Of a stretch of 43,550 nt of DNA, positions 42-43,477 are shown piece by piece. The stretch's first letter is position 1; the number at the start of each line of letters is the position of its first letter. The stretch is from a virus. Where the stretch lies: positions 1 to 43,550 of the IMG/VR virus record IMGVR_UViG_3300044713_000031; one strand, written 5' to 3'. The translations under genes were made by a program, and so were the position numbers. A model generated the notes under the pieces. That model was not told the origin of the DNA. It did no database searches and worked only from the letters and a program-made list of their open reading frames with translations.

Positions 42-127
42 GCGAAAGTGGCGGAATTGGTAGACGCACTGGATTTAGGTTCCAGCGGGTAACCCCCGTA
101 AGGGTTCGAGTCCCTTCTTTCGCACCA
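42..127 (+). tRNA. tRNA-Leu (anticodon UAG), attL side
   Basis: An 86-nt tRNA with encoded CCA. The acceptor stem GCGAAAG pairs with CTTTCGC, and the anticodon stem CTGGA/TCCAG is perfectly paired around the loop TTTAGGT, giving anticodon UAG. A long variable arm is present, as expected for tRNA-Leu. The 5' half is outside the prophage (host), while the 3' part from position 74 is the shared att core, so integration regenerates an intact gene here. Confidence 0.96.
74..127 (+). repeat. attL: attL core, 54-bp direct repeat
   Basis: This segment is identical to 43424..43477. It starts in the anticodon loop and ends at CCA; sequence diverges on both sides. It lies directly beyond the 3' end of the integrase gene, the usual arrangement for tyrosine integrases that use tRNA 3' ends. 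The exact crossover point inside the repeat cannot be read from the sequence. Confidence 0.93.
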
Positions 128-210: not shown

Positions 211-1407
211 TCAAATCGAAGCACTAGAACCGCTCTCGTCATCCTTGCGGAGTTTCGAGAGTGCCGAGGCCGCTGCGGATAGCTGACGGGTCTCCAGGTG
301 CGTGTAGATGTCGGTCGTCTTAAGGTCACTGTGGCCGAGCCACTCCTTGACCACCTTGATGTCCACACCGGCCCGCAGGAGCCGACTGGCGCACGTATGG
401 CGCAGCGAGTGGATCACGCAGTCCCGGTGCTTCACCCCGGCCTTCTCCTTGGCCCTGGTCCATATGTCCTGAGCGCGCCGCTTGTCCAGGTCAGCGAACG
501 GGCCACCTGGAACCTGCTTGCACTTCTCAAACTCCTTGCGGCATTTTGGGGTCATTGGCACCGAGCGTGGCTTACCGGTCTTCAGCACCTCGGGGCGGAA
601 CAGCTCGATCATCCCTACGTCCGATCCCCTCGGCATCACCAGCTCCTCGTGTAACAGCCCCAGGGCTTCCCCTAGGCGCAACCCGGATTCCACCAGGACC
701 ACGAACAGTCGGTGATAGCGGTGGGCGTCCAGCTTGCGCGGAGGGCCTCCCTGTGGACCAGGGCGTTCATCGTCCAGGGTGAGGACGGCCTCGAAGATGG
801 CCTTCTCGTCGGCAGGGGGCATGAAGTATTGCCGTCCGCCCCGCTCAGCCACCTCTTTGACCTTCGGGAACGAGCCGGGCACACCCTTCCAGTCCGTTTG
901 TTCGAGCGCCACGTTGAACATACGGCGCAGGCAGGCGAGATGGCGATTGATCGTTGCACCGGCCAGTCCTGAGTCGGCCAGCTTCTCCGTGAGGTCTAGG
1001 ACATGCCGGGACTGGATAGACGCGAGCGGTGTATCTGCGCCGAGGATCGCCTCAATCGCTCGACACTTCACCGCGTAGTCCTCGCGGGACTTCAGGGCAC
1101 CCCAAATCGACCGGGACTTCAGGCAGACGTCAAAGGCTTGCTTGAGCGTCATGGCCTCGTCCGCACGAAGCGCGGCACGGGCCGATGGGCTGTCCTCGCC
1201 GCGCACCAGGGCGACCAGGGCGGCTTTCGAGATGCCCGGGTTGGCGGTCATCGCCGCGACCACGGCGTTCTCTTTGCTCTGAGCGAGGCCGAGGTTGCGG
1301 GTGCCGGTGGAAAGAACCTCACGGCGACCGCCGACCTGGACGCGCATCATGTAGTACCGACGATCAGGTGAGCCGGGTTTGACTGTTCCCTTCAGCTTGA
1401 GAGGCAT
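211..1407 (-). CDS. int: Tyrosine integrase
   Basis: A 398-aa site-specific recombinase that should integrate and excise the phage at tRNA-Leu. The catalytic set is visible: R244 in SGLRLGEALG, H333 and R336 in HSLRHTCASR, H359 in WLGHSDLKTTDIYTH, and nucleophile Y368. The region about 85-185 is a SAM-like core-binding domain, and the N-terminal 70 residues are a small arm-binding-type domain. The ATG at 1407 follows the site TGGAG at good spacing. A leftward terminator separates it from the MarR-like gene upstream. In the circular phage it is directly upstream of, and co-oriented with, the RNA polymerase gene across attP. Confidence 0.95.
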   Translation of the reverse strand: MPLKLKGTVKPGSPDRRYYMMRVQVGGRREVLSTGTRNLGLAQSKENAVVAAMTANPGISKAALVALVRGEDSPSARAALRADEAMTLKQAFDVCLKSRSIWGALKSREDYAVKCRAIEAILGADTPLASIQSRHVLDLTEKLADSGLAGATINRHLACLRRMFNVALEQTDWKGVPGSFPKVKEVAERGGRQYFMPPADEKAIFEAVLTLDDERPGPQGGPPRKLDAHRYHRLFVVLVESGLRLGEALGLLHEELVMPRGSDVGMIELFRPEVLKTGKPRSVPMTPKCRKEFEKCKQVPGGPFADLDKRRAQDIWTRAKEKAGVKHRDCVIHSLRHTCASRLLRAGVDIKVVKEWLGHSDLKTTDIYTHLETRQLSAAASALSKLRKDDESGSSASI

Positions 1408-8330: not shown

Positions 8331-8531
8331 TCACCTCAGGGTTGCGCGATATGCGGCCACGTCAGCATCGAGCTGCACGACATCATCGCGGTACTCGCGG
8401 ATGACATCCGGGAGGCGATTCTTGCAGATGTCCCACACGGCGATCACCGGCAGCACAATGTATTTGAACGACACCCACGCCCACTTGTGAGTGCAGATGA
8501 AATTAACGAATGGTGTCTTCTTGAGGCTCAT
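8331..8531 (-). CDS. Small membrane protein of the lysis cassette, 66 aa
   Basis: The protein starts MSLKKTPFVNFICTHKWAW, has one hydrophobic segment (FKYIVLPVIAVW) and a charged helical tail. Its ATG overlaps the lysozyme stop (ATGA), indicating coupling. A membrane-anchored protein with a helical tail beside lysozyme could be an inner-membrane spanin-like or gp18.5-like factor; no lipoprotein partner was seen, so the role stays open. Confidence 0.6.
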   Translation of the reverse strand: MSLKKTPFVNFICTHKWAWVSFKYIVLPVIAVWDICKNRLPDVIREYRDDVVQLDADVAAYRATLR

Positions 8532-8977
8532 GGGGTATTCCAAAGTTTGATTTCCGCCTCGCGGCGGTTGACGAGGCCAGCGTTCACACGCAGCTGTCCG
8601 CTGACGGTTTCTTTGTTCCAACGGCGGAGCTGAGTCGGGACCGATGCGTAGTCGCCTTCATTCAACAGGCGAAGCAAGGTCGATGCGCGGAGCTTCGTTT
8701 CGCCTTCGTTGAACACGAAGGAGATCAAAGCGAATCGCTGGTTGTCGGTGAGCTTCACCTTGACCAGCCTACGTACCGCATCTTCGGCAGCGGCAGCGTC
8801 GTGTGCCAGCAGGAGTCGAGAGGTTTCTTTGGTGATCGTCAGGCCCGCATGTAACTCTGCGCCTGTGTGTCCGACACCGATGGTCCATGTGCCGTTTGTG
8901 TCGCGGTACGCGACTAGCCGCTCGCCTTCGACGGTCACGAGGAACGTCTCCAGACGAGGATCGAGTTGGTAAGCTAT
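8528..8977 (-). CDS. GH24 phage lysozyme (endolysin), probable AUA start
   Basis: A 149-aa T4/P22-type lysozyme cutting the glycan strands of peptidoglycan. The catalytic segment VEGERLVAYRDTNGTWTIGV carries the E-(x8)-D-(x5)-T triad. No ATG, GTG or TTG gives a sensible N-terminus: the longer ATG frame overlaps the divergent 9009 gene, while the GTG at 8938 removes the first helix. ATA at 8977 has TTGGAG exactly 5 nt upstream and yields MAYQLDPRLETFLVTVEGERL, the expected length before the catalytic Glu. No signal or SAR helix is visible, so export should depend on the holin. Confidence 0.8.
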   Translation of the reverse strand: MAYQLDPRLETFLVTVEGERLVAYRDTNGTWTIGVGHTGAELHAGLTITKETSRLLLAHDAAAAEDAVRRLVKVKLTDNQRFALISFVFNEGETKLRASTLLRLLNEGDYASVPTQLRRWNKETVSGQLRVNAGLVNRREAEIKLWNTP

Positions 8978-9008
8978 GGGAACTCCAAGGGGAAGTAGGG
9001 GACGGAAA

Positions 9009-9545
9009 ATGTGGCCGTTTAAGAAAACCCAGCGCATGTCCGTAGATGAGCGAGCCGGATTGGCCGCGACGTTCTTGCTTGATTCCCTGCACGGGATCAC
9101 AGCTGCAGTGGTGGGCGCGGCCATTGGGGAGGGTTGGGAGGAACAGCAGGACGACGCGTTTATGGTTACCGCGTTTGAGCTGCTCATCTTCCAGCTTCAC
9201 TTGGCGGATCGGCTGACCCGCGTGAAAGCTGTGGGGAAGAACGGCGGCGCGGAGTTGATGGATGCCTTGCTGCCCATCGTCAGGGATCATGCACCGGAAT
9301 TTATGCGTGCCGATTTTCAAGAGCAGTACAACATTCGGCAGCTTTTTTACGGGCAGTGCAAGGCGTTCACTCCCGCCGAAGGTCAACCGGCTTCAGGAAC
9401 TCTATTTTGGGAATTTGCCAAGATAGTTCTTACAGCCACAGAACAGGCACAGGAAATAACGAAGATGCTTGGAATCACCGCGATGTGTGGGGACATGCTC
9501 CGAGGCATCGACAATTCCTTCGAGCAACTTGGCGTCTACCGCTAG
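9009..9545 (+). CDS. Antisense accessory gene (moron), 178 aa, unknown
   Basis: The protein starts MWPFKKTQRMSVDERAGL; GGGGAC/GGA precedes the ATG at 9009. It is predicted all-helical, with an alanine/glycine-rich segment near residues 25-40. It lies rightward between the leftward lysozyme and large-terminase genes, and its stop overlaps the terminase stop by 4 nt. No family recognised. Antisense placement within the late operon suggests expression in the lysogen. Confidence 0.65.
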   Translation: MWPFKKTQRMSVDERAGLAATFLLDSLHGITAAVVGAAIGEGWEEQQDDAFMVTAFELLIFQLHLADRLTRVKAVGKNGGAELMDALLPIVRDHAPEFMRADFQEQYNIRQLFYGQCKAFTPAEGQPASGTLFWEFAKIVLTATEQAQEITKMLGITAMCGDMLRGIDNSFEQLGVYR

Positions 9546-33042: not shown

Positions 33043-33347
33043 ACGAAGAGTTCAGCCTTGACGGTGAGAGTCTTCGACCAACGCTGATGATCGTCGTGCA
33101 GGGTTTCCTCGAACTTCACGACGCCGGTACGGATCAGTTCGTCGGCCAGCTTGATAACCATGTCGCGCTTCGCGTAATGACGGAAGTCGTCAACCATGTT
33201 TAAGTTCGTGCCGCGCATGCAGGCGTCGAGGGGCAGGCGGTGTTCGTGGAAGATTTGCAGCTTCTTCGGCTCGTTCATGCCGCGCACGGTCTTTTCAAGC
33301 TCTGCCACTTGGCGCAGCAGCGTGTCTTTCGCAACAGCTTTGCTCAT
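33036..33347 (-). CDS. Hypothetical protein, 103 aa
   Basis: The protein starts MSKAVAKDTLLRQVAELEKT, a leucine-zipper-like helix, and ends TLTVKAELFVC. GAGGAAG is 7 nt upstream of the ATG at 33347, which overlaps the previous stop (ATGA). No family recognised; it sits in the replication operon. Confidence 0.7.
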   Translation of the reverse strand: MSKAVAKDTLLRQVAELEKTVRGMNEPKKLQIFHEHRLPLDACMRGTNLNMVDDFRHYAKRDMVIKLADELIRTGVVKFEETLHDDHQRWSKTLTVKAELFVC

Positions 33348-33748
33348 TTCAACTTCCTCAGTACCTTGAGTTTCGTAAGTGGCTTGATGCCGTAAGAGAC
33401 GCCGACAGTGGCGATGACCATGTAGCGCCACCAGTCAGGCAGCGACTCGTCCAGTGCGTTGAATCCGTCCATGACGAAATGCGACATGCCGGGGATGAAG
33501 CACAGAACCAGCGGAGTCATTACGATGATGAACATCGCTTCGTCCTTCCAACCGGATCGGGCGATAGCTGCGGATTCCCACTCTCCGTCTTGCTGTGCCT
33601 TCGTGATTTTTGCTTGCACCACGGCAAGCTTGAGATTGTGTTCCGCCGCATCCTCGCGCGCTTTCAGGACGCGGTTCTGTTTGATGGAATCGATGACACC
33701 GCTGAAGACAAACTTCGCAGCACCGCCGAGTAGTGATAACCAGTTCAT
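33344..33748 (-). CDS. Holin-like membrane protein, 134 aa
   Basis: The N-terminal helix (MNWLSLLGGAAKFVFSGVID) is followed by a charged coil (QNRVLKAREDAAEHNLKLA) and two TM segments (AMFIIVMTPLVLCFIPG, YMVIATVGVSYGI). GWKDEAMFIIVMTPLVLCFI with a following DGFNALDE is the text of three-TM holins from T7-like and related phages. Placed in the replication region, it may act in lysis together with the holin at 12019. Its ATG overlaps the HNH stop. Confidence 0.65.
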   Translation of the reverse strand: MNWLSLLGGAAKFVFSGVIDSIKQNRVLKAREDAAEHNLKLAVVQAKITKAQQDGEWESAAIARSGWKDEAMFIIVMTPLVLCFIPGMSHFVMDGFNALDESLPDWWRYMVIATVGVSYGIKPLTKLKVLRKLK

Positions 33749-35885: not shown

Positions 35886-36062
35886 TTAGTCGTCGAGTTC
35901 CTCGACGGTGATGACTACGCGCACACACCGAGCGGCCCCTCTGTATTGCTGAGAGGCCGCTTCGGCTGACTTGGGTAGTCCGATGGGGAAGCAGCCCGAA
36001 GCTGCGGTGAGAGGTGGTGCGTCTTGCGGGATGTAGACGACGTGTTGAACCGACTCACTCAA
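35886..36062 (-). CDS. Small protein between primase-helicase and polymerase, 58 aa
   Basis: The frame (TTG start) reads MSESVQHVVYIPQDAPPL ... CVRVVITVEELDD. The start overlaps the primase-helicase stop (TTGA); a second TTG at 36074 is also in frame. Short conserved genes occupy this place in T7 (4.x). No function seen. Confidence 0.55.
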   Translation of the reverse strand: MSESVQHVVYIPQDAPPLTAASGCFPIGLPKSAEAASQQYRGAARCVRVVITVEELDD

Positions 36063-37687
36063 AAGTCTTGACAACCAGTGCTGCCGGACTCGTCGCCATA
36101 CATGGCGTCGGGTTCAAACTGCTTCTCGAACAACAGGCCAGTGCTGGCTTCGTATCCGAGTGCGATGGTTTTGCCGGTTGCCTGTCCGGTGTGACGATCC
36201 TTCAGGACGCGGAACGTCGTGGTCTGCCGTTCGTCTTCATCGTCGGCTTGCTGATTGCGTTCGAGGCCGAACATGAAGTGGCTCCAGAAGCCGATAGCTC
36301 GGGAGCCTTTGAAGTGGCGGATCATCACGCGTCCGCCTTCTTCGTGAGGCTTACCTTCCGGTGTTGCCAAGTGAGAGATGAAGTAGAAGTACAGCCCATT
36401 GGCTTCAGTGAACGAAGCGATCTCGGCCATAATCTTTTCGAGTGCTTTCTTCTCGTCCTCCTCAGCAGCCGCTAGGGCAGTGAGGTGATCCAGGAAGATG
36501 TGCTTCACGCCCTCGGTGTGGACGAGGTACTTCATCTTGGCGAGGATGGTTTCCCATTCGGTCGAACCGAACGAGTCATACATAAACACGTTGCCGCTGC
36601 TTTCGATCTGCTCGAACGCGGCGATCAGTTCTGCTTCAGTCCACGATCCATCGGGAACATGGAATCGTCTGCCCTTGAGCTTGCCTGCTACACGTTTAGC
36701 GGTTTCCGCAGGCGGTTGCTCCAGATAGAACAGAGCGCACTTCTCACCGAGATCGATAGCGGTATGCTTGATTTCTTGCGTAAAGAAGTCGGTCTTACCT
36801 ACACCAGTGCCGGCACCGAAGCCGTACACCTCGCCAGGACGACGCCCATATGTGTAGTCGGTGAGCGATGGAAGGAACCACGGCAGTCCGAGTTCAGCAG
36901 GCTTAAGTGCCTTCTCGCGGATGTCGCTGAAAGTCACGATGCCATCGGGGCGAAAGACCTTTGCGTTGAACATCGCGGTGATGATTTCCCGCGTCCGGCC
37001 TGACTGGATCAGCTCGTTCGCATCCTTCGCAGGAAGGTAGGCGATCTTGCATTTGCCGGGGGAGAACAACAGGGCGCACTCTTTGGCCGCGTCCTGTCCG
37101 GGTTCGTCCATGTCGAACATGAGGACAACTTCCTCGAACTGTTCGAGCCACTCGATCTCACGAGCAATGGACTTCTTCGCGCCCTGCGCGCCGTTGGGTA
37201 GTGAGACGACAGGCCACTTGTTCTCTTGTGCTTGCGACACAGAGAGTGCGTCGATCTCACCTTCGGTGATGATGATGCGGCGGCCTGGACTCCAGAGGTG
37301 TTGCCCATATAGACCCGCGAGCTTCATGTCTCCTTTGAAGCTGAAGGTCTTATCAGCGTACCGAATCTTCTGCGCGACGATCTGACCATCACGGCGGTAG
37401 TTCGCGATCTGTACTTTCTTGCCGTGGTGCTCGCCAATGGTGTAGCCAAACTTGCGGCAGGTTTCTTCGGTGATGCCGCGTTTGCCTAGGGCAGCGACCT
37501 CGCCTTGGATGAAGTCGCTCATGCGCTTTCCTTTAGTTGTAGGAGGGGTGGCTTCGCCGTCGCCCTTCACGTATGCCTTGCATGCAAAGCAATACTGATG
37601 ACCATCTGTGTAGAGGGAGTTCGCATCGGAACTCCCGCACTCTTCACAGGCGACGTGTGCGACGAACTCAGACTCGCTTTCGGCCAC
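36059..37687 (-). CDS. Primase-helicase (gp4-like)
   Basis: A 542-aa bifunctional protein (T7 gp4 is 566 aa). The zinc-binding module C14, C17, C33, C36 recognises primer sites; TEGEIDALSV and MFDMDEPGQDA are Toprim primase motifs; FGAGTGVGKTDFF is helicase Walker A, followed by FLDHLTALAA (Walker B region). The C-terminus ends in GCQDF, the acidic-aromatic tail that contacts polymerase in T7. The start is GTG at 37687. Confidence 0.95.
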   Translation of the reverse strand: MAESESEFVAHVACEECGSSDANSLYTDGHQYCFACKAYVKGDGEATPPTTKGKRMSDFIQGEVAALGKRGITEETCRKFGYTIGEHHGKKVQIANYRRDGQIVAQKIRYADKTFSFKGDMKLAGLYGQHLWSPGRRIIITEGEIDALSVSQAQENKWPVVSLPNGAQGAKKSIAREIEWLEQFEEVVLMFDMDEPGQDAAKECALLFSPGKCKIAYLPAKDANELIQSGRTREIITAMFNAKVFRPDGIVTFSDIREKALKPAELGLPWFLPSLTDYTYGRRPGEVYGFGAGTGVGKTDFFTQEIKHTAIDLGEKCALFYLEQPPAETAKRVAGKLKGRRFHVPDGSWTEAELIAAFEQIESSGNVFMYDSFGSTEWETILAKMKYLVHTEGVKHIFLDHLTALAAAEEDEKKALEKIMAEIASFTEANGLYFYFISHLATPEGKPHEEGGRVMIRHFKGSRAIGFWSHFMFGLERNQQADDEDERQTTTFRVLKDRHTGQATGKTIALGYEASTGLLFEKQFEPDAMYGDESGSTGCQDF

Positions 37688-37841
37688 GCTGCACGGACCA
37701 CATTGCGTTGCGCTTGGTCACGCCGACTTTGCGCTTCAGAGAAGACAGAACGAGAGATACCGTCTCGCCCTTAACATCGCTGCGCTTCACGTTCGCGTTG
37801 AGGAATGCTTCGCGCATCGCGGTGTTGACGTTATGGGTCAT
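37668..37841 (-). CDS. Basic small protein, 57 aa
   Basis: The frame reads MTHNVNTAMREAFLNANVKR and later SLKRKVGVTKRNAMWSVQRG. AAGGAG lies 5 nt upstream of the ATG at 37841; the start overlaps the previous stop and the end overlaps the primase start by 20 nt. The high Lys/Arg content suggests nucleic-acid binding. No family recognised. Confidence 0.65.
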   Translation of the reverse strand: MTHNVNTAMREAFLNANVKRSDVKGETVSLVLSSLKRKVGVTKRNAMWSVQRGRKRV

Positions 37842-38194
37842 GCTTTCTCCTTGAGAGCTTCGATGAGGTCTTCGATGTCATCTGCATCGAAGCCGAGGTT
37901 GTCCATCACGTTTCTGACGAGAGCCAGCGTGATGCGCGGTTCACGGGGGCGGGGTGGGTGCAGCGGGAAGTCGGCGCGTTTCTGTGCAGCACCAAGCGCG
38001 TAGCGCATGTAGCGTTGACCAGTGGCGTCCTTCGCTTCTTCCTTCATGACGTCGTAGCCAGCCGCAACGATCTCGTCGATGCGAGATGCGAGGCGTCGAA
38101 TGCGGTACACACCTTCGGCCTGCCAGGATGTGATGTGTGTTTCTGCGCGCATGTGCGCGAGAACCTTTGCTGCTTGCGGCGGCAACTTGGTCAT
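37838..38194 (-). CDS. Helix-turn-helix protein, 118 aa
   Basis: The protein starts MTKLPPQAAKVLAHMRAETH; ITSWQAEGVYRIRRLASRID with IVAAGYDV is the wHTH text found in many small phage DNA-binding proteins (substrate then recognition helix, wing at GYDV). The acidic C-terminus (FDADDIEDLIEALKEKA) may contact a partner. AGGAAACACC precedes the ATG. It may be a replication accessory or regulator. Confidence 0.7.
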   Translation of the reverse strand: MTKLPPQAAKVLAHMRAETHITSWQAEGVYRIRRLASRIDEIVAAGYDVMKEEAKDATGQRYMRYALGAAQKRADFPLHPPRPREPRITLALVRNVMDNLGFDADDIEDLIEALKEKA

Positions 38195-38202
38195 GGTGTT
38201 TC

Positions 38203-38595
38203 CTATCTGAGAGTTTTGAGGGGAGCTTCGGGGCCGTAGTGGATTGCGATTACTTCGCTGCCCGCCGTCTCTAAGGCGAAGTGGAGTTCGCTCAGGGCGC
38301 GGAGTTGTTCTGAGGTGAAAGAACCGCGTGGCTCTAGTTGGTCATTCAGTCCGCCAACGAGGCAGACCTGGATGGCGCGGTGATTCATGTCGCGTGACAT
38401 GGCACCGGGAAGACTTGTTGCGCGTCCGGCTTCAATCGTTCCGTTGCGACGGATGACGTAATGAACGCCGATCTGCGAATAGCCTTGCCGACGATGCGCA
38501 GCGGCCAGCTCAGCCGCGCCAATGTCCTCGCTATCGCGGGTCATCGAACAGGTGACAAAGAGCCGGTCCACGGCGGTCAGTGGTTTCAGTTTCAC
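38203..38595 (-). CDS. T7 lysozyme (gp3.5) homologue lacking catalytic residues
   Basis: A 130-aa amidase_2-fold protein (T7 gp3.5 is 151 aa) matching T7 lysozyme in LFVTCS, GRATSLPGAMSRDMNHRAI and QVCLVGGLND. T7 lysozyme binds zinc by H17, H122 and C130 and uses Y46 and K128. Here H17 is Thr15, Y46 is Val44, and the protein ends (HYGPEAPLKTLR) without the Lys-Ala-Cys segment, so zinc binding and amidase activity should be lost. The second T7 function, inhibition of phage RNAP, could remain. GTG start overlaps nothing essential; the RusA stop overlaps it (GTGA). Confidence 0.85.
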   Translation of the reverse strand: MKLKPLTAVDRLFVTCSMTRDSEDIGAAELAAAHRRQGYSQIGVHYVIRRNGTIEAGRATSLPGAMSRDMNHRAIQVCLVGGLNDQLEPRGSFTSEQLRALSELHFALETAGSEVIAIHYGPEAPLKTLR

Positions 38596-39002
38596 GAGAG
38601 GGTGTAGATGTGGACTTCCGTGCGCGCTTGTTCGCCTGGAGCGGCGAAACGCTTGGAGGAGATCAAGACTTCAACTTGTACGTCGTCGTACCAGTGGAGT
38701 CCCGCCTTGGTGATGGCGTCCAGTGGTCCCTTTGCGTAGTTGTCCACGTCGCCCTTCGGTCGCGTCAGCTTTGAGGTGCGCGCCTTGGTGGAGATGGTTT
38801 CTACATGGACCAGGAGGGATTGTTCACCGACGTATTGGTTCTGATAGAACCCATCGGTTAGATGCTTGGCTGCTTGATCGAGCCAGTTCTTGTACGGCTT
38901 GGTGTGATACGTGCCCCAGCGTGTAACGCGGGGACGAGAAGCGGGTACAGGGTCAAACACAAAAACGACGGAGGCAACATAAGTTGCCCCCGCCCATTCC
39001 AT
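38592..39002 (-). CDS. RusA-like Holliday junction resolvase
   Basis: A 136-aa protein. FDPVPASRPRVTRWGTYHTK, then RPKGDVDNYAKGPLDAITKA and WYDDVQVEVLISSKRF form the RusA signature, with the paired acidic residues of the active site (DVDN and DD). It stands where T7 has endonuclease I (gene 3), which resolves branched DNA, so it likely replaces that enzyme. The ATG at 39002 is preferred over 39059, which overlaps SSB. Confidence 0.85.
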   Translation of the reverse strand: MEWAGATYVASVVFVFDPVPASRPRVTRWGTYHTKPYKNWLDQAAKHLTDGFYQNQYVGEQSLLVHVETISTKARTSKLTRPKGDVDNYAKGPLDAITKAGLHWYDDVQVEVLISSKRFAAPGEQARTEVHIYTLS

Positions 39003-39024
39003 CTTGTATCCCGATGCCTTCTGC

Positions 39025-39720
39025 TTAGAAGTCACCGTCGCTAGCGTCATCGCCAGCATCAGCGGACGTGTCAGCTTTCTCGCTGGTGTCCTGCTTGGTT
39101 TCGTTCAACTCGGTGTCGTCGGCTTCGTAGCCTTCTTCCTCGTCGCCTAGGCCGAACGAGTCAGCACTGTAGCCACCGCGCGATACCAGCTCGATCACCT
39201 TCACCAGCACCAGTCGGCACGACAGGTAGAACAGCTTGCTCGACGGTACCGGACCACACGTGGTCTCGAAGCCGACCCTTAGAATCGAACCGCCGAAGAT
39301 ATCGGGTGGGTTCTTCATAGTGACGCCGCGAGCGTCGATGATCGTGGGCTTCTGCGTCCACTTCTTTTCGGTCTTCTTGTTGACGCCGCTTGCTTTCATC
39401 TTGAAGTTAATCAGGATGCGGCCCGTTTCGTCGCCCTCCTTGTCAACTTCCTCGGTGAACACCGGGGCCTTGGAGTATTGCTTCTCGAACTGCTTGCGCT
39501 TGGCCGCATCGAGAGTTGCCAGATGCTCATCCCATGCAGCGTCACGGCGCTTCTCCAACTCAGCGATCAGTTCCGGCACGCCCTGCGCGTTCGGATCGAA
39601 TGCCAAGCGCGCGGAGTATTCACCTTCGGGCTTGAACTTCGTGTCCGGTACGGACAACTGCGGATAAACAGCCGTGCCGCGTGGGGTGTGGAGCGGCGGG
39701 AGCTTCTTGGGTTTTGCCAT
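39025..39720 (-). CDS. Single-stranded DNA-binding protein (gp2.5-like)
   Basis: A 231-aa protein (T7 gp2.5 is 232 aa) with an OB-fold core and a long acidic C-terminal tail ending DASDGDF with a terminal Phe, the hallmark needed for contact with polymerase and helicase. It reads MAKPKKLPPLHTPRGTAVYP and FKMKASGVNKKTEKKW in the core. Its ATG overlaps the stop of the 50-aa gene (TAATG). Confidence 0.93.
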   Translation of the reverse strand: MAKPKKLPPLHTPRGTAVYPQLSVPDTKFKPEGEYSARLAFDPNAQGVPELIAELEKRRDAAWDEHLATLDAAKRKQFEKQYSKAPVFTEEVDKEGDETGRILINFKMKASGVNKKTEKKWTQKPTIIDARGVTMKNPPDIFGGSILRVGFETTCGPVPSSKLFYLSCRLVLVKVIELVSRGGYSADSFGLGDEEEGYEADDTELNETKQDTSEKADTSADAGDDASDGDF

Positions 39721-39872
39721 TAGACTTCGGTTTCCTTGCTAGCGTTGTCGGCGGCCACGATGGCGCTGACATCAAAGCCAGCGAATGCGAGTGCCTGTTT
39801 GGTGGAAGTGGAAAGCAAGCCGGTGTCATCCAGCTCGCGGTATGCGTCACGCAGGATTGCGTTGGGTGTCAC
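39720..39872 (-). CDS. Small early protein, 50 aa
   Basis: The frame (GTG start) reads MTPNAILRDAYRELDDTGLL and then TKQALAFAGFDVSAIVAAD. The GTG overlaps the previous stop (GTGA), and the stop overlaps the SSB ATG, giving a chain of coupled starts. Helical; no family recognised. Confidence 0.65.
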   Translation of the reverse strand: MTPNAILRDAYRELDDTGLLSTSTKQALAFAGFDVSAIVAADNASKETEV

Positions 39873-40147
39873 ATGAACTTCCTCTCGATCTCGCCCTTCG
39901 CGTATTCGCGGACGACGTTGAAGGTGTCCTCGTTTTGATAGCGACAGTCGCGGTCCATGCGGGACAGCGTGTGCAATGCCTGGGATCGGTCGATCCCAAG
40001 CGCGTCGGTAACGAGGTAGAAGGCCGCCGTCAGTGCGATCACTTGGTTCGCAGGCGGTAGGTCTTGGAGAGAGCTGATGACGCGGAACGCACCAGTCGCG
40101 GCATCCTCGGGAGTGCGGAAGCCGATCTGTGCTTTCACGTCAGCCAT
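39869..40147 (-). CDS. Early protein, 92 aa
   Basis: The protein starts MADVKAQIGFRTPEDAATGA and ends VVREYAKGEIERKFM. A hydrophobic helix (ANQVIALTAAFYLVTDALG) is followed by a helical domain with SRMDRDCRYQNEDTF. The start overlaps the previous gene by 8 nt. No function recognised; it fits the class of small host-directed early proteins. Confidence 0.7.
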   Translation of the reverse strand: MADVKAQIGFRTPEDAATGAFRVISSLQDLPPANQVIALTAAFYLVTDALGIDRSQALHTLSRMDRDCRYQNEDTFNVVREYAKGEIERKFM

Positions 40148-40310
40148 GAGGATGACGAAGCGCGTGCTGGCGGATCGATTCCTTCCGCACCTGTTCAATG
40201 GCATCGAACGCGACTTGCGAATGTTCGATGTTCTTGACGGTGCGTGCGACTGCTTCCAATCGCTGCATTGGCTTCGTGTAGAACGGACGGACTGTGCGTT
40301 TCTTAGCCAT
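40140..40310 (-). CDS. Basic small early protein, 56 aa
   Basis: The frame reads MAKKRTVRPFYTKPMQRLEA and then HSQVAFDAIEQVRKESIRQH. GGAG lies 8 nt before the ATG at 40310, and both ends overlap neighbours. Basic N-terminus; function unknown. Confidence 0.7.
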   Translation of the reverse strand: MAKKRTVRPFYTKPMQRLEAVARTVKNIEHSQVAFDAIEQVRKESIRQHALRHPHG

Positions 40311-40646: not shown

Positions 40647-43073
40647 TTACGCAAAGAAATACGCGGACTGCTCCACCAGGGAGAGATCCAAATCGCCCGA
40701 AGGCGGGAGCGGGGGAAGGTCAGCAGCGATCTCCGAAGGGAGCTGTGCTGCCAGTTCATCGCGGAAGTCGGTAAGGACTTCGCGGCTGTACTGTTCAACG
40801 AAGGCGGCTCTCAATGATGCCGCCAGGAGGCCGGTGTTGGCCGCGTGGGTTCCGTAGCTGTCGTGGATCATGGCAAAGGACTCAACCCCGTTGTCCGTCG
40901 CCGTGCATGTAGTCAGCATCATGTGTGATGCATCGCAGGAGTGAACGAAGTTCGGAGAGATGCCGAGGGCCTGTCTGCGGCCATCGAGTTTTGTTCCTTC
41001 TACGTTCGCACTTATACGTGTTTGTCTACCGCCGACGTGAGCAACAATCTGTTCTGCAATGCTTTGTCTGTACTCCTGAAGCACCGGGAAACCGGCTGGG
41101 GTTGTCCAGCTCACCGGCATGTCACCGGATGCTGCAACCCTCGCAGCGGACTTCAGCCAGTCCATCGCTTCACGTGCGGCCACCACTACTAAACCGATGC
41201 AATCCCAAAGGACATCTGCTAGGTACTGCGCGACTTCCCATGAATCATCTTTGCCTTGCTTGCGCATCTCCTCAGATATCTGTCCCCGCATCCCGGACTT
41301 GGTGACGCCATAGGGCAGCGTCATCACCGGCCGCTTCACGATGCTGCGCGACAGTTGTCCGTCCCACTTTGCAGCGAGCGCATTGCCGCCTTCGGCTTCG
41401 CGCTTCACGCGATCCGCTGCGACGTTCATCACTTGTGTATAGATGTCAGCGGGCTTTTGCTGTGGCATCAGGTTGGTGGCAGCGCCGCCGATGGAATCCT
41501 TGAGCATGGCCGAGAAGTTCTGAAGGCCATTGCAGGAACCGTCGAGTGCAATGGGGAGGTGCGAGACGAAACTTTCGCCTTGTGCTTTGTAGCCAGCCCA
41601 TTCAAAGCAGGCGGCCAATGCGCTCCACGGTGAATCGGCTTCGGTCCAGAAGCGGTGACCGTCGAGGGGATCAATCGCGGAATCGAGGATGCGCTCCTCG
41701 TTCTCCATCACCCATTTAAGACGGTCAGCGAACGGCACCTTGTCCACGCCGAATACGTTGGCGAGGTGAATTGCCAGCCAGCGGACACCCTCCTCGCCCA
41801 ACGGCATGCCGTTGGCAAAGCACAGCAGGGACTTCGTTTGATCGTCACCCTGGGGATTCAAGGTTCCCGGTACGGGGTACACCCGGCCTCTGAAGTCCAG
41901 CGAGTGCGGGAAGTAGATGGCGTGTTCAGGCTCAAAGCGGCAAGCGAGGGCGATCGTCTGGGCCGCCGCGACCCTTTTAGATGTGGCACGAGCGTTCAGC
42001 TCATATACCTCCGCGCGCTTCCGCTTCCAAGCCTTGAACGCTTCGGGGTTCTCCTCCTTCCACCAGTCCATGCGATCCACCGACACCGGAAGACCGGGCA
42101 GGGGTTCCAGCTCGCGGCGCGGGAGATCGCCGATGCCACCACCGGCCTCCCAGGCTTCCCGCATAACAGCCAGGACGTTCGAGTTGATCTTCCAGGCGGT
42201 TGCCTGGATCGCGTTGAGGGCTTCATAGACCATAGGCATGTCCGCGTTGTCCAGCTCACGGAGGTAAGCCTTGTTCCGGGTGCGGACGATGGGGACCAGT
42301 CCGCCTGCGTCGGTCAGGTAGCCGCCCCCCTTTGATGCCTGCCAGGGCAGGGGTTGGACCAGCATGGGCATGCGGATGGGGGCGAAATGGGCCGCCGCGT
42401 CGTGGGCCTTGTCTAGCCAGTCCATGACCTCGGGGGTTCCACGGAGCAACGTGCGGCGCTTGTCCTGCCCGTGGCTCGTGTCCAGGTACAGGTGAGCGAA
42501 GCCAGTAGCTTCAATGAACAGCTCGACCATCTTCATCCCGAAGTGGATACCGTCGTGGCCGGGGAAGGCGAACTGTTCCAGCTCGGTACGGCGCATGGCC
42601 GCCGACAAGACGCTCTTGTTGTGACGCTGGGACGTACTCTTTTTGAGGACGCCCTGGAGGTGTTTATAGAGACCGGGGGATTCCTCGCGGAAACGCGAGT
42701 AATTAATGGAATCCTCTACCGCCGTGGCGATGGCCTCGGCAACGGTCTGCACGCGGGTGTCCTTTGACGTGATCGCGTTCAGGCAGTGGCGCACGGTCAG
42801 GTATGCCAGTTCAGTTGAGGGAAACTTCTCCACCCATCGGACGGCGGTGTGCTTCTTGCCGGGTTTGCCGTTGCGGGCTTCGGCAACAAATGCGTCGATG
42901 GCGGTAGCTACGGGACCGATGGTGTCCCGGATCAGGCGACGGCCAGGGCCGGAATCGGCTTCGTCTTGGCGGTCACGTTCTTTCTTATATCGGTCGATGC
43001 CAAGGGTCAGACTTTCTTCTTCGAGAGCGATCTGGCGGGTTCTGAGGTCGAGCGTGTTCTGCACGGTATCCAT
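40647..43073 (-). CDS. T7-type single-subunit RNA polymerase (gp1)
   Basis: An 808-aa polymerase (T7 is 883 aa) that should transcribe the phage middle and late genes. Catalytic motifs are present: LDGSCNGLQNFSAML (motif A; T7 D537), KRPVMTLPYGVTKSGM (motif B; T7 K631/Y639) and FVHSCDASHMML (motif C; T7 H811/D812), with MIHDSYGTHA; the C-terminus ends in YFFA, near T7's FAFA foot. Homology to T7 begins near the ATG at 43073 (GGAG upstream). An in-frame ATG at 43184 with a stronger AAGGAGG site would add 37 residues. Confidence 0.96.
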   Translation of the reverse strand: MDTVQNTLDLRTRQIALEEESLTLGIDRYKKERDRQDEADSGPGRRLIRDTIGPVATAIDAFVAEARNGKPGKKHTAVRWVEKFPSTELAYLTVRHCLNAITSKDTRVQTVAEAIATAVEDSINYSRFREESPGLYKHLQGVLKKSTSQRHNKSVLSAAMRRTELEQFAFPGHDGIHFGMKMVELFIEATGFAHLYLDTSHGQDKRRTLLRGTPEVMDWLDKAHDAAAHFAPIRMPMLVQPLPWQASKGGGYLTDAGGLVPIVRTRNKAYLRELDNADMPMVYEALNAIQATAWKINSNVLAVMREAWEAGGGIGDLPRRELEPLPGLPVSVDRMDWWKEENPEAFKAWKRKRAEVYELNARATSKRVAAAQTIALACRFEPEHAIYFPHSLDFRGRVYPVPGTLNPQGDDQTKSLLCFANGMPLGEEGVRWLAIHLANVFGVDKVPFADRLKWVMENEERILDSAIDPLDGHRFWTEADSPWSALAACFEWAGYKAQGESFVSHLPIALDGSCNGLQNFSAMLKDSIGGAATNLMPQQKPADIYTQVMNVAADRVKREAEGGNALAAKWDGQLSRSIVKRPVMTLPYGVTKSGMRGQISEEMRKQGKDDSWEVAQYLADVLWDCIGLVVVAAREAMDWLKSAARVAASGDMPVSWTTPAGFPVLQEYRQSIAEQIVAHVGGRQTRISANVEGTKLDGRRQALGISPNFVHSCDASHMMLTTCTATDNGVESFAMIHDSYGTHAANTGLLAASLRAAFVEQYSREVLTDFRDELAAQLPSEIAADLPPLPPSGDLDLSLVEQSAYFFA

Positions 43074-43115: not shown

Positions 43116-43218
43116 GAAGTCAGTAGATAGAGATGAGTGAGGGGTGCCAGGGCACCTATAAACAGAGAACTCTGAGGAGATCATCAGGGCCTCCTTAGGA
43201 AGGCCTTTAGATAATCTT

Positions 43219-43391: not shown

Positions 43392-43477
43392 GCGAGAGTG
43401 GCGGAATTGGCAGACGCACCAGTTTTAGGTTCCAGCGGGTAACCCCCGTAAGGGTTCGAGTCCCTTCTTTCGCACCA
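43392..43477 (+). tRNA. tRNA-Leu(UAG)-like hybrid at attR, anticodon stem broken
   Basis: An 86-nt tRNA-like sequence with anticodon UAG and CCA. The acceptor stem GCGAGAG/CTTTCGC pairs with one G-T. The 3' 54 nt equal attL, but the 5' part differs from the left copy (acceptor, D loop, anticodon stem). The anticodon stem is CCAGT against TCCAG, leaving three of five pairs mismatched, so it is probably not functional. The 5' half appears to come from the phage attP and to derive from a different tRNA-Leu (CCAGT needs ACTGG). Confidence 0.75.
43424..43477 (+). repeat. attR: attR core, 54-bp direct repeat
   Basis: Identical to 74..127. Beyond it the sequence becomes very GC-rich (gccgccgcggcgcc), which is taken as bacterial flank. 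Confidence 0.92.

Follow-up and report, generated by a model that had tools for sequence, protein, structure and literature searches.

A T7 lysozyme homologue lacking the amidase site is conserved in a lineage of integrating T7-like phages

Introduction

T7 lysozyme (gp3.5) is a textbook two-function protein, and its functions have previously been separated by laboratory mutation. Zinc is required for the amidase but is dispensable for inhibition of the phage RNA polymerase (RNAP), and residues 2–52 form the RNAP-interaction domain (PMC5445346). The K128Y variant has no amidase activity and inhibits RNAP fully (PMC5732464). Here, we examined a 43,550-nt stretch of viral DNA (IMG/VR record IMGVR_UViG_3300044713_000031; the window), in which a gp3.5 homologue appears to have lost its amidase site. 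If the enzyme is gone, why is the gene kept?

Results

The window gene is a gp3.5 orthologue in an integrated T7-like phage

The open reading frame runs on the minus strand from a GTG start (38593–38595), which overlaps the stop of the preceding RusA-family resolvase gene (GTGA), to a stop at 38203–38205 (Table 1). A preliminary description, made from the sequence alone, had called the product a T7-lysozyme homologue, and this was borne out by phmmer searches of the PDB, which returned T7 lysozyme (1ARO_L, 1.6e-22; 1LBA, 2.3e-22). Matches to Pfam Amidase_2 (6.6e-8) and to the PHROG amidase phrog_822 (1.3e-29) were also found. An AlphaFold2 model, built on an alignment of 45 sequences drawn solely from the window and its related loci, reached a pLDDT of 89.8. 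Its best Foldseek matches in the PDB were T7 lysozyme alone (1LBA, TMq 0.81) and T7 lysozyme with T7 RNAP (1ARO_L, TMq 0.84), i.e. the predicted fold is that of the PGRP/amidase-2 proteins.

Genes on the minus strand are ordered RNAP, a small conserved gene, single-stranded DNA-binding protein (SSB), RusA, gp3.5, an HTH_39 protein, primase/helicase and DNA polymerase, followed by further genes, portal, capsid, tail genes, terminase, GH24 lysozyme and integrase. This is the T7 order with endonuclease I replaced by RusA. As in T7, the gp3.5 homologue lies between the resolvase (gp3 position) and the primase/helicase, in a genome with its own RNAP, and overlaps the upstream resolvase gene. The RNAP frame is open to an ATG at 43184, but relatives suggest a start near 43073. 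Since two tRNA-Leu copies flank the element, an integrated phage is the most plausible reading of the window. A related locus (L013) sits within a Dyella silvatica contig, and both L013 and another relative, L003, adjoin the trigger factor gene tig. The window gene is the orthologue of gp3.5 in an integrating T7-like phage lineage.

Three further genes may be mentioned. The HTH_39 gene starts 8 nt after gp3.5, is weakly kept in the related locus L025, and may encode a co-regulated transcription factor. Between RNAP and SSB, the gene at 39869–40204 shares 42–80% identity across the relatives described below and gave no convincing family match. A small protein with apparent transmembrane segments (33344–33748, between DNA polymerase and exonuclease; PHROG 2524, unknown function) is a possible holin.

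Table 1. Positions of the gp3.5 homologue and of other features in the window
Feature	Position	Strand	Remarks
gp3.5 homologue without amidase site	38203..38595	minus	130 aa; T15, V44, M66 replace T7 H17, Y46, H68; K128/C130 region missing
Codons 2–50 of gp3.5, hyper-conserved stretch	38446..38592	minus	mean pN 0.016, pS 0.51; matches T7 lysozyme RNAP-interaction domain, aa 2–52
RusA-family resolvase, in place of T7 gp3 endonuclease I	38592..39059	minus	stop overlaps gp3.5 start
T7 gp2.5-like SSB	39025..39720	minus	
Winged-helix (HTH_39) protein directly after gp3.5	37838..38194	minus	kept in all dead-clade loci compared
T7 gp4-like primase/helicase	36059..37687	minus	
T7-like single-subunit RNAP, presumed gp3.5 partner	40647..43073	minus	
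GH24 lysozyme (PF00959), presumed endolysin	8528..9187	minus	E/D/T motif intact
Tyrosine integrase	211..1407	minus	
tRNA-Leu, one attachment-site copy	42..127	plus	
tRNA-Leu copy, other attachment site	43392..43477	plus	94% identical

The amidase site is missing throughout a single clade

Alignment to T7 lysozyme upheld the replacement of H17 by T15 and of Y46 by V44, and the absence of the segment with K128 and C130, all of which had been proposed beforehand; in addition, H68 is replaced by M66. No reliable counterpart was found for H122: L-INS-i aligns a proline, and the nearby H119 is a valine in L003. Homologues were then classified at T7 positions 17, 46, 68, 122, 128 and 130. The catalytic set was intact in 94 locus entries (82 distinct) comprising gp3.5 and other Amidase_2 relatives, reading HYHHKC in 92 and HYAHKC in two, and the site was dead in 15 distinct proteins (T17, V46, M/A/V at 68, gaps at 128 and 130); most intact sequences were retrieved by a search whose patterns included H17 or Y46, and the proportion of dead proteins therefore gives no estimate of frequency.

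The dead proteins form subgroup A (the window, L001–L004 and L013) and subgroup B (L015–L017, L031, L032, L034–L036 and L038), and were obtained from IMG/VR contigs and from prophages in a single bacterial family, the one to which the Dyella genome belongs (found in 4 of 234 genomes of that family). In all 15, zinc ligand H17 is changed to T and C130 is absent, while catalytic Y46 and K128 correspond to V and a gap. The third ligand, H122, is uncertain, as this position is P or has no clear match in subgroup A but is mostly H in subgroup B. In a tree built with the catalytic columns left out, the 15 proteins lie on one side of a branch (SH-aLRT 100), with a single change of state; we refer to them as the dead clade. 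Their C-terminus is short and variable, and the window protein is ∼20 residues shorter than T7 lysozyme. From these sequences we infer that amidase activity is absent in the dead clade, and annotating its members as 'amidase' or 'endolysin' is probably a mistake.

Could a metal site have been rebuilt from other residues, leaving an active amidase? Candidate ligands remain (C18, H36, H47 and C80), and most subgroup B members have a His near position 122. However, C18, H36, H47 and C80 are also conserved in the intact homologues, whose zinc ligands are H17, H122 and C130. Furthermore, comparison of the 15 dead proteins with the intact homologues revealed no His or Cys newly fixed in the dead clade, where nothing corresponds to K128 or C130. 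A rebuilt amidase is very improbable.

The protein is under strong purifying selection centred on its N-terminal half

A short, variable C-terminus might also be expected of a decaying, functionless remnant that happens still to be present. This explanation is scarcely credible, because it is contradicted by the intact frames of all 15 distinct proteins and by pairwise dN/dS values of 0.07–0.28 in the window's subgroup A. Moreover, codons 2–50 are nearly unchanged despite high synonymous divergence, and gp3.5 is better conserved than the adjoining RusA in dead-clade loci. The preliminary description had argued that enzyme activity was lost with retention of the gene, and loss of the site and retention of the gene are both supported: the site is gone from 15 proteins that are under strong purifying selection. 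It had also stated that the gene is conserved as a protein, which stands on the 14 further relatives with the same substitutions and on dN/dS; the overlap with adjacent genes, offered in its support, is a weak reason.

In subgroup A, mean pN rises from 0.016 in codons 2–50 to 0.17 in the next 55 codons and 0.28 in the remainder, with pS of 0.51, 0.59 and 0.63, respectively. Synonymous sites vary freely in all three parts, and therefore the constraint acts on the protein. A DNA-level or overlapping-gene cause of the N-terminal conservation is ruled out by the ordinary pS there. Across the 15 dead-clade proteins, 29 of 51 positions are invariant in the region of T7 residues 2–52, compared with 17 of 57 in residues 53–109 (Fisher P = 0.006), whereas conserved positions are evenly spread in the intact homologues (12/51 versus 15/57; P = 0.83); sequence pairs are not independent, and these statistics are descriptive. 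In agreement, mean identity in the N-terminal part exceeds that in the middle part by 0.21 in the dead clade, and by at most 0.03 in any 15-member neighbour-cluster of intact homologues.

This distribution bears on another possibility, namely that the protein binds wall fragments without cutting them, like the non-catalytic PGRPs of animals. The model fold matches PGRPs, and non-catalytic members that bind peptidoglycan are known (PMC8124813). However, residues in and around the T7 cleft are changed in the dead clade (H17, A20, Y46, H68, N73 and G78), conservation peaks in the N-terminal half, away from the middle and C-terminal parts, and no signal peptide was noticed in the gp3.5 homologue. 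Animal non-catalytic PGRPs share the Amidase_2/PGRP fold without catalysis, but they are innate immunity receptors and distant in sequence. We regard a peptidoglycan-binding role as quite improbable.

A GH24 lysozyme accompanies loss of the amidase site

The window does carry the separate GH24 lysozyme that had been noted at the outset (PF00959, 5.8e-38). It keeps the E-8x-D-5x-T spacing of T4 lysozyme. Of the dead-clade genomes and prophages, nine were of sufficient length for assessment and each carried PF00959; three truncated dead-clade contigs (23–28 kb) did not yield it. Among T7-like phages or genomes whose gp3.5 is intact, the family was missing from 27 and from 11 further named phages (0/38 in all). 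The association represents one evolutionary event in one clade, as seen by a lysin scan for PF00959 in which some contigs are incomplete. In the Dyella silvatica prophage, the C-terminus of the GH24 protein (L129) is shortened and divergent in comparison with its relatives.

The closest isolates by RNAP (40–44% identity) are the temperate-type T7-like phages S2B, jiawei and LUZ100. Their gp3.5 gene occupies the same position as in the window and in the dead-clade loci; in S2B and jiawei it likewise adjoins RusA, and both of these phages carry an integrase. In contrast to the dead clade, gp3.5 in these three phages keeps all six catalytic positions and GH24 is absent. The T7-like Desulfovibrio phage ProddE has GH24, like the window, but lacks Amidase_2, and its endonuclease I gene is directly followed by that of the primase/helicase, with no gp3.5 in between (L151, 8400–16000). 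ProddE lacks gp3.5 altogether, and retention of the gene is therefore not automatic. Among phages with GH24, one lineage is without the gp3.5 gene and another keeps gp3.5 without its enzyme site. A different lysozyme, GH24, appears to have taken over lysis in the dead clade.

Discussion

We consider it probable that dead-clade gp3.5 is an enzyme-free regulator of RNAP, retained after lysis passed to GH24. In this model, an ancestor of the lineage would have acquired the GH24 lysozyme, to which lysis passed, and gp3.5 would then have lost its zinc ligands, catalytic residues and C-terminal segment, once; we infer this order of events. What would have preserved the gene is its remaining function: the N-terminal half would bind and restrain the phage's own single-subunit RNAP, as in T7. 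Such restraint, through slower initiation or promoted pausing, could affect late transcription, replication and packaging. The model gains support because constraint centres on the region reported to bind RNAP in T7 (residues 2–52), and because inhibition in T7 requires neither zinc nor K128. The RNAP inhibition is that of T7 lysozyme, and is putative for the window clade, which differs from T7 in lacking H17, C130, Y46, H68 and K128.

Alternatively, the N-terminal half may have been recruited to a new partner (a replisome protein, host RNAP or another regulator), with binding to the phage RNAP gone. Consistent with this, the dead clade has 19 positions with a fixed residue unlike the commonest in intact homologues, many of them on the first strand and helix, and RNAP positions homologous to the T7 interface were not significantly more conserved than the rest of RNAP (permutation P = 0.27; difference from intact phages, P = 0.13). 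The RNAP-side comparison is little informative; most of the published T7-interface positions have already diverged from T7 in all of these temperate phages, whether their gp3.5 is intact or dead. On the other hand, the conserved region coincides with the known RNAP-interaction domain, K6, C18, H36, H47 and R51 persist or are frequent in dead and intact groups alike, and a switch of partner is an extra assumption. We consider a new partner unlikely. The derived residues of the N-terminal half (L8, R13, M20, A35, R38, Y41 and S42) are compatible both with tuning of the existing interface and with a new partner.

The initial proposal of selection for RNAP control in a temperate T7-like phage is backed in part, by the constraint on the RNAP-interaction region and by the temperate context (integrase and flanking tRNA-Leu repeats), with the control itself remaining putative. 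That dead-clade gp3.5 is a dedicated regulator helping a temperate T7-like phage to check its polymerase, e.g. around lysogeny or induction, is possible but on the doubtful side, and a role in lysogeny is speculation.

In a search of open-access papers, no account of a naturally occurring, catalytically dead gp3.5 came to light. No phage records with at least 60% identity were found, and a plasmid search gave only relatives below 60%. Loss of catalysis in PGRP-fold proteins is already known in animals. Like the K128Y protein of Lemo21/pReX strains, dead-clade gp3.5 is without a working amidase site and retains the RNAP-binding half; K128Y is one engineered change, whereas in the natural clade almost every catalytic position is lost along with the C-terminal segment. 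On the best reading, dead-clade gp3.5 would be a natural counterpart of laboratory K128Y. The clade looks like a natural separation of the two functions, with lysis given to another enzyme. It offers a way to test whether control of RNAP is by itself sufficient for gp3.5 to be retained, and how integrating T7-like phages keep in hand a polymerase which, left alone, would drive lytic growth.
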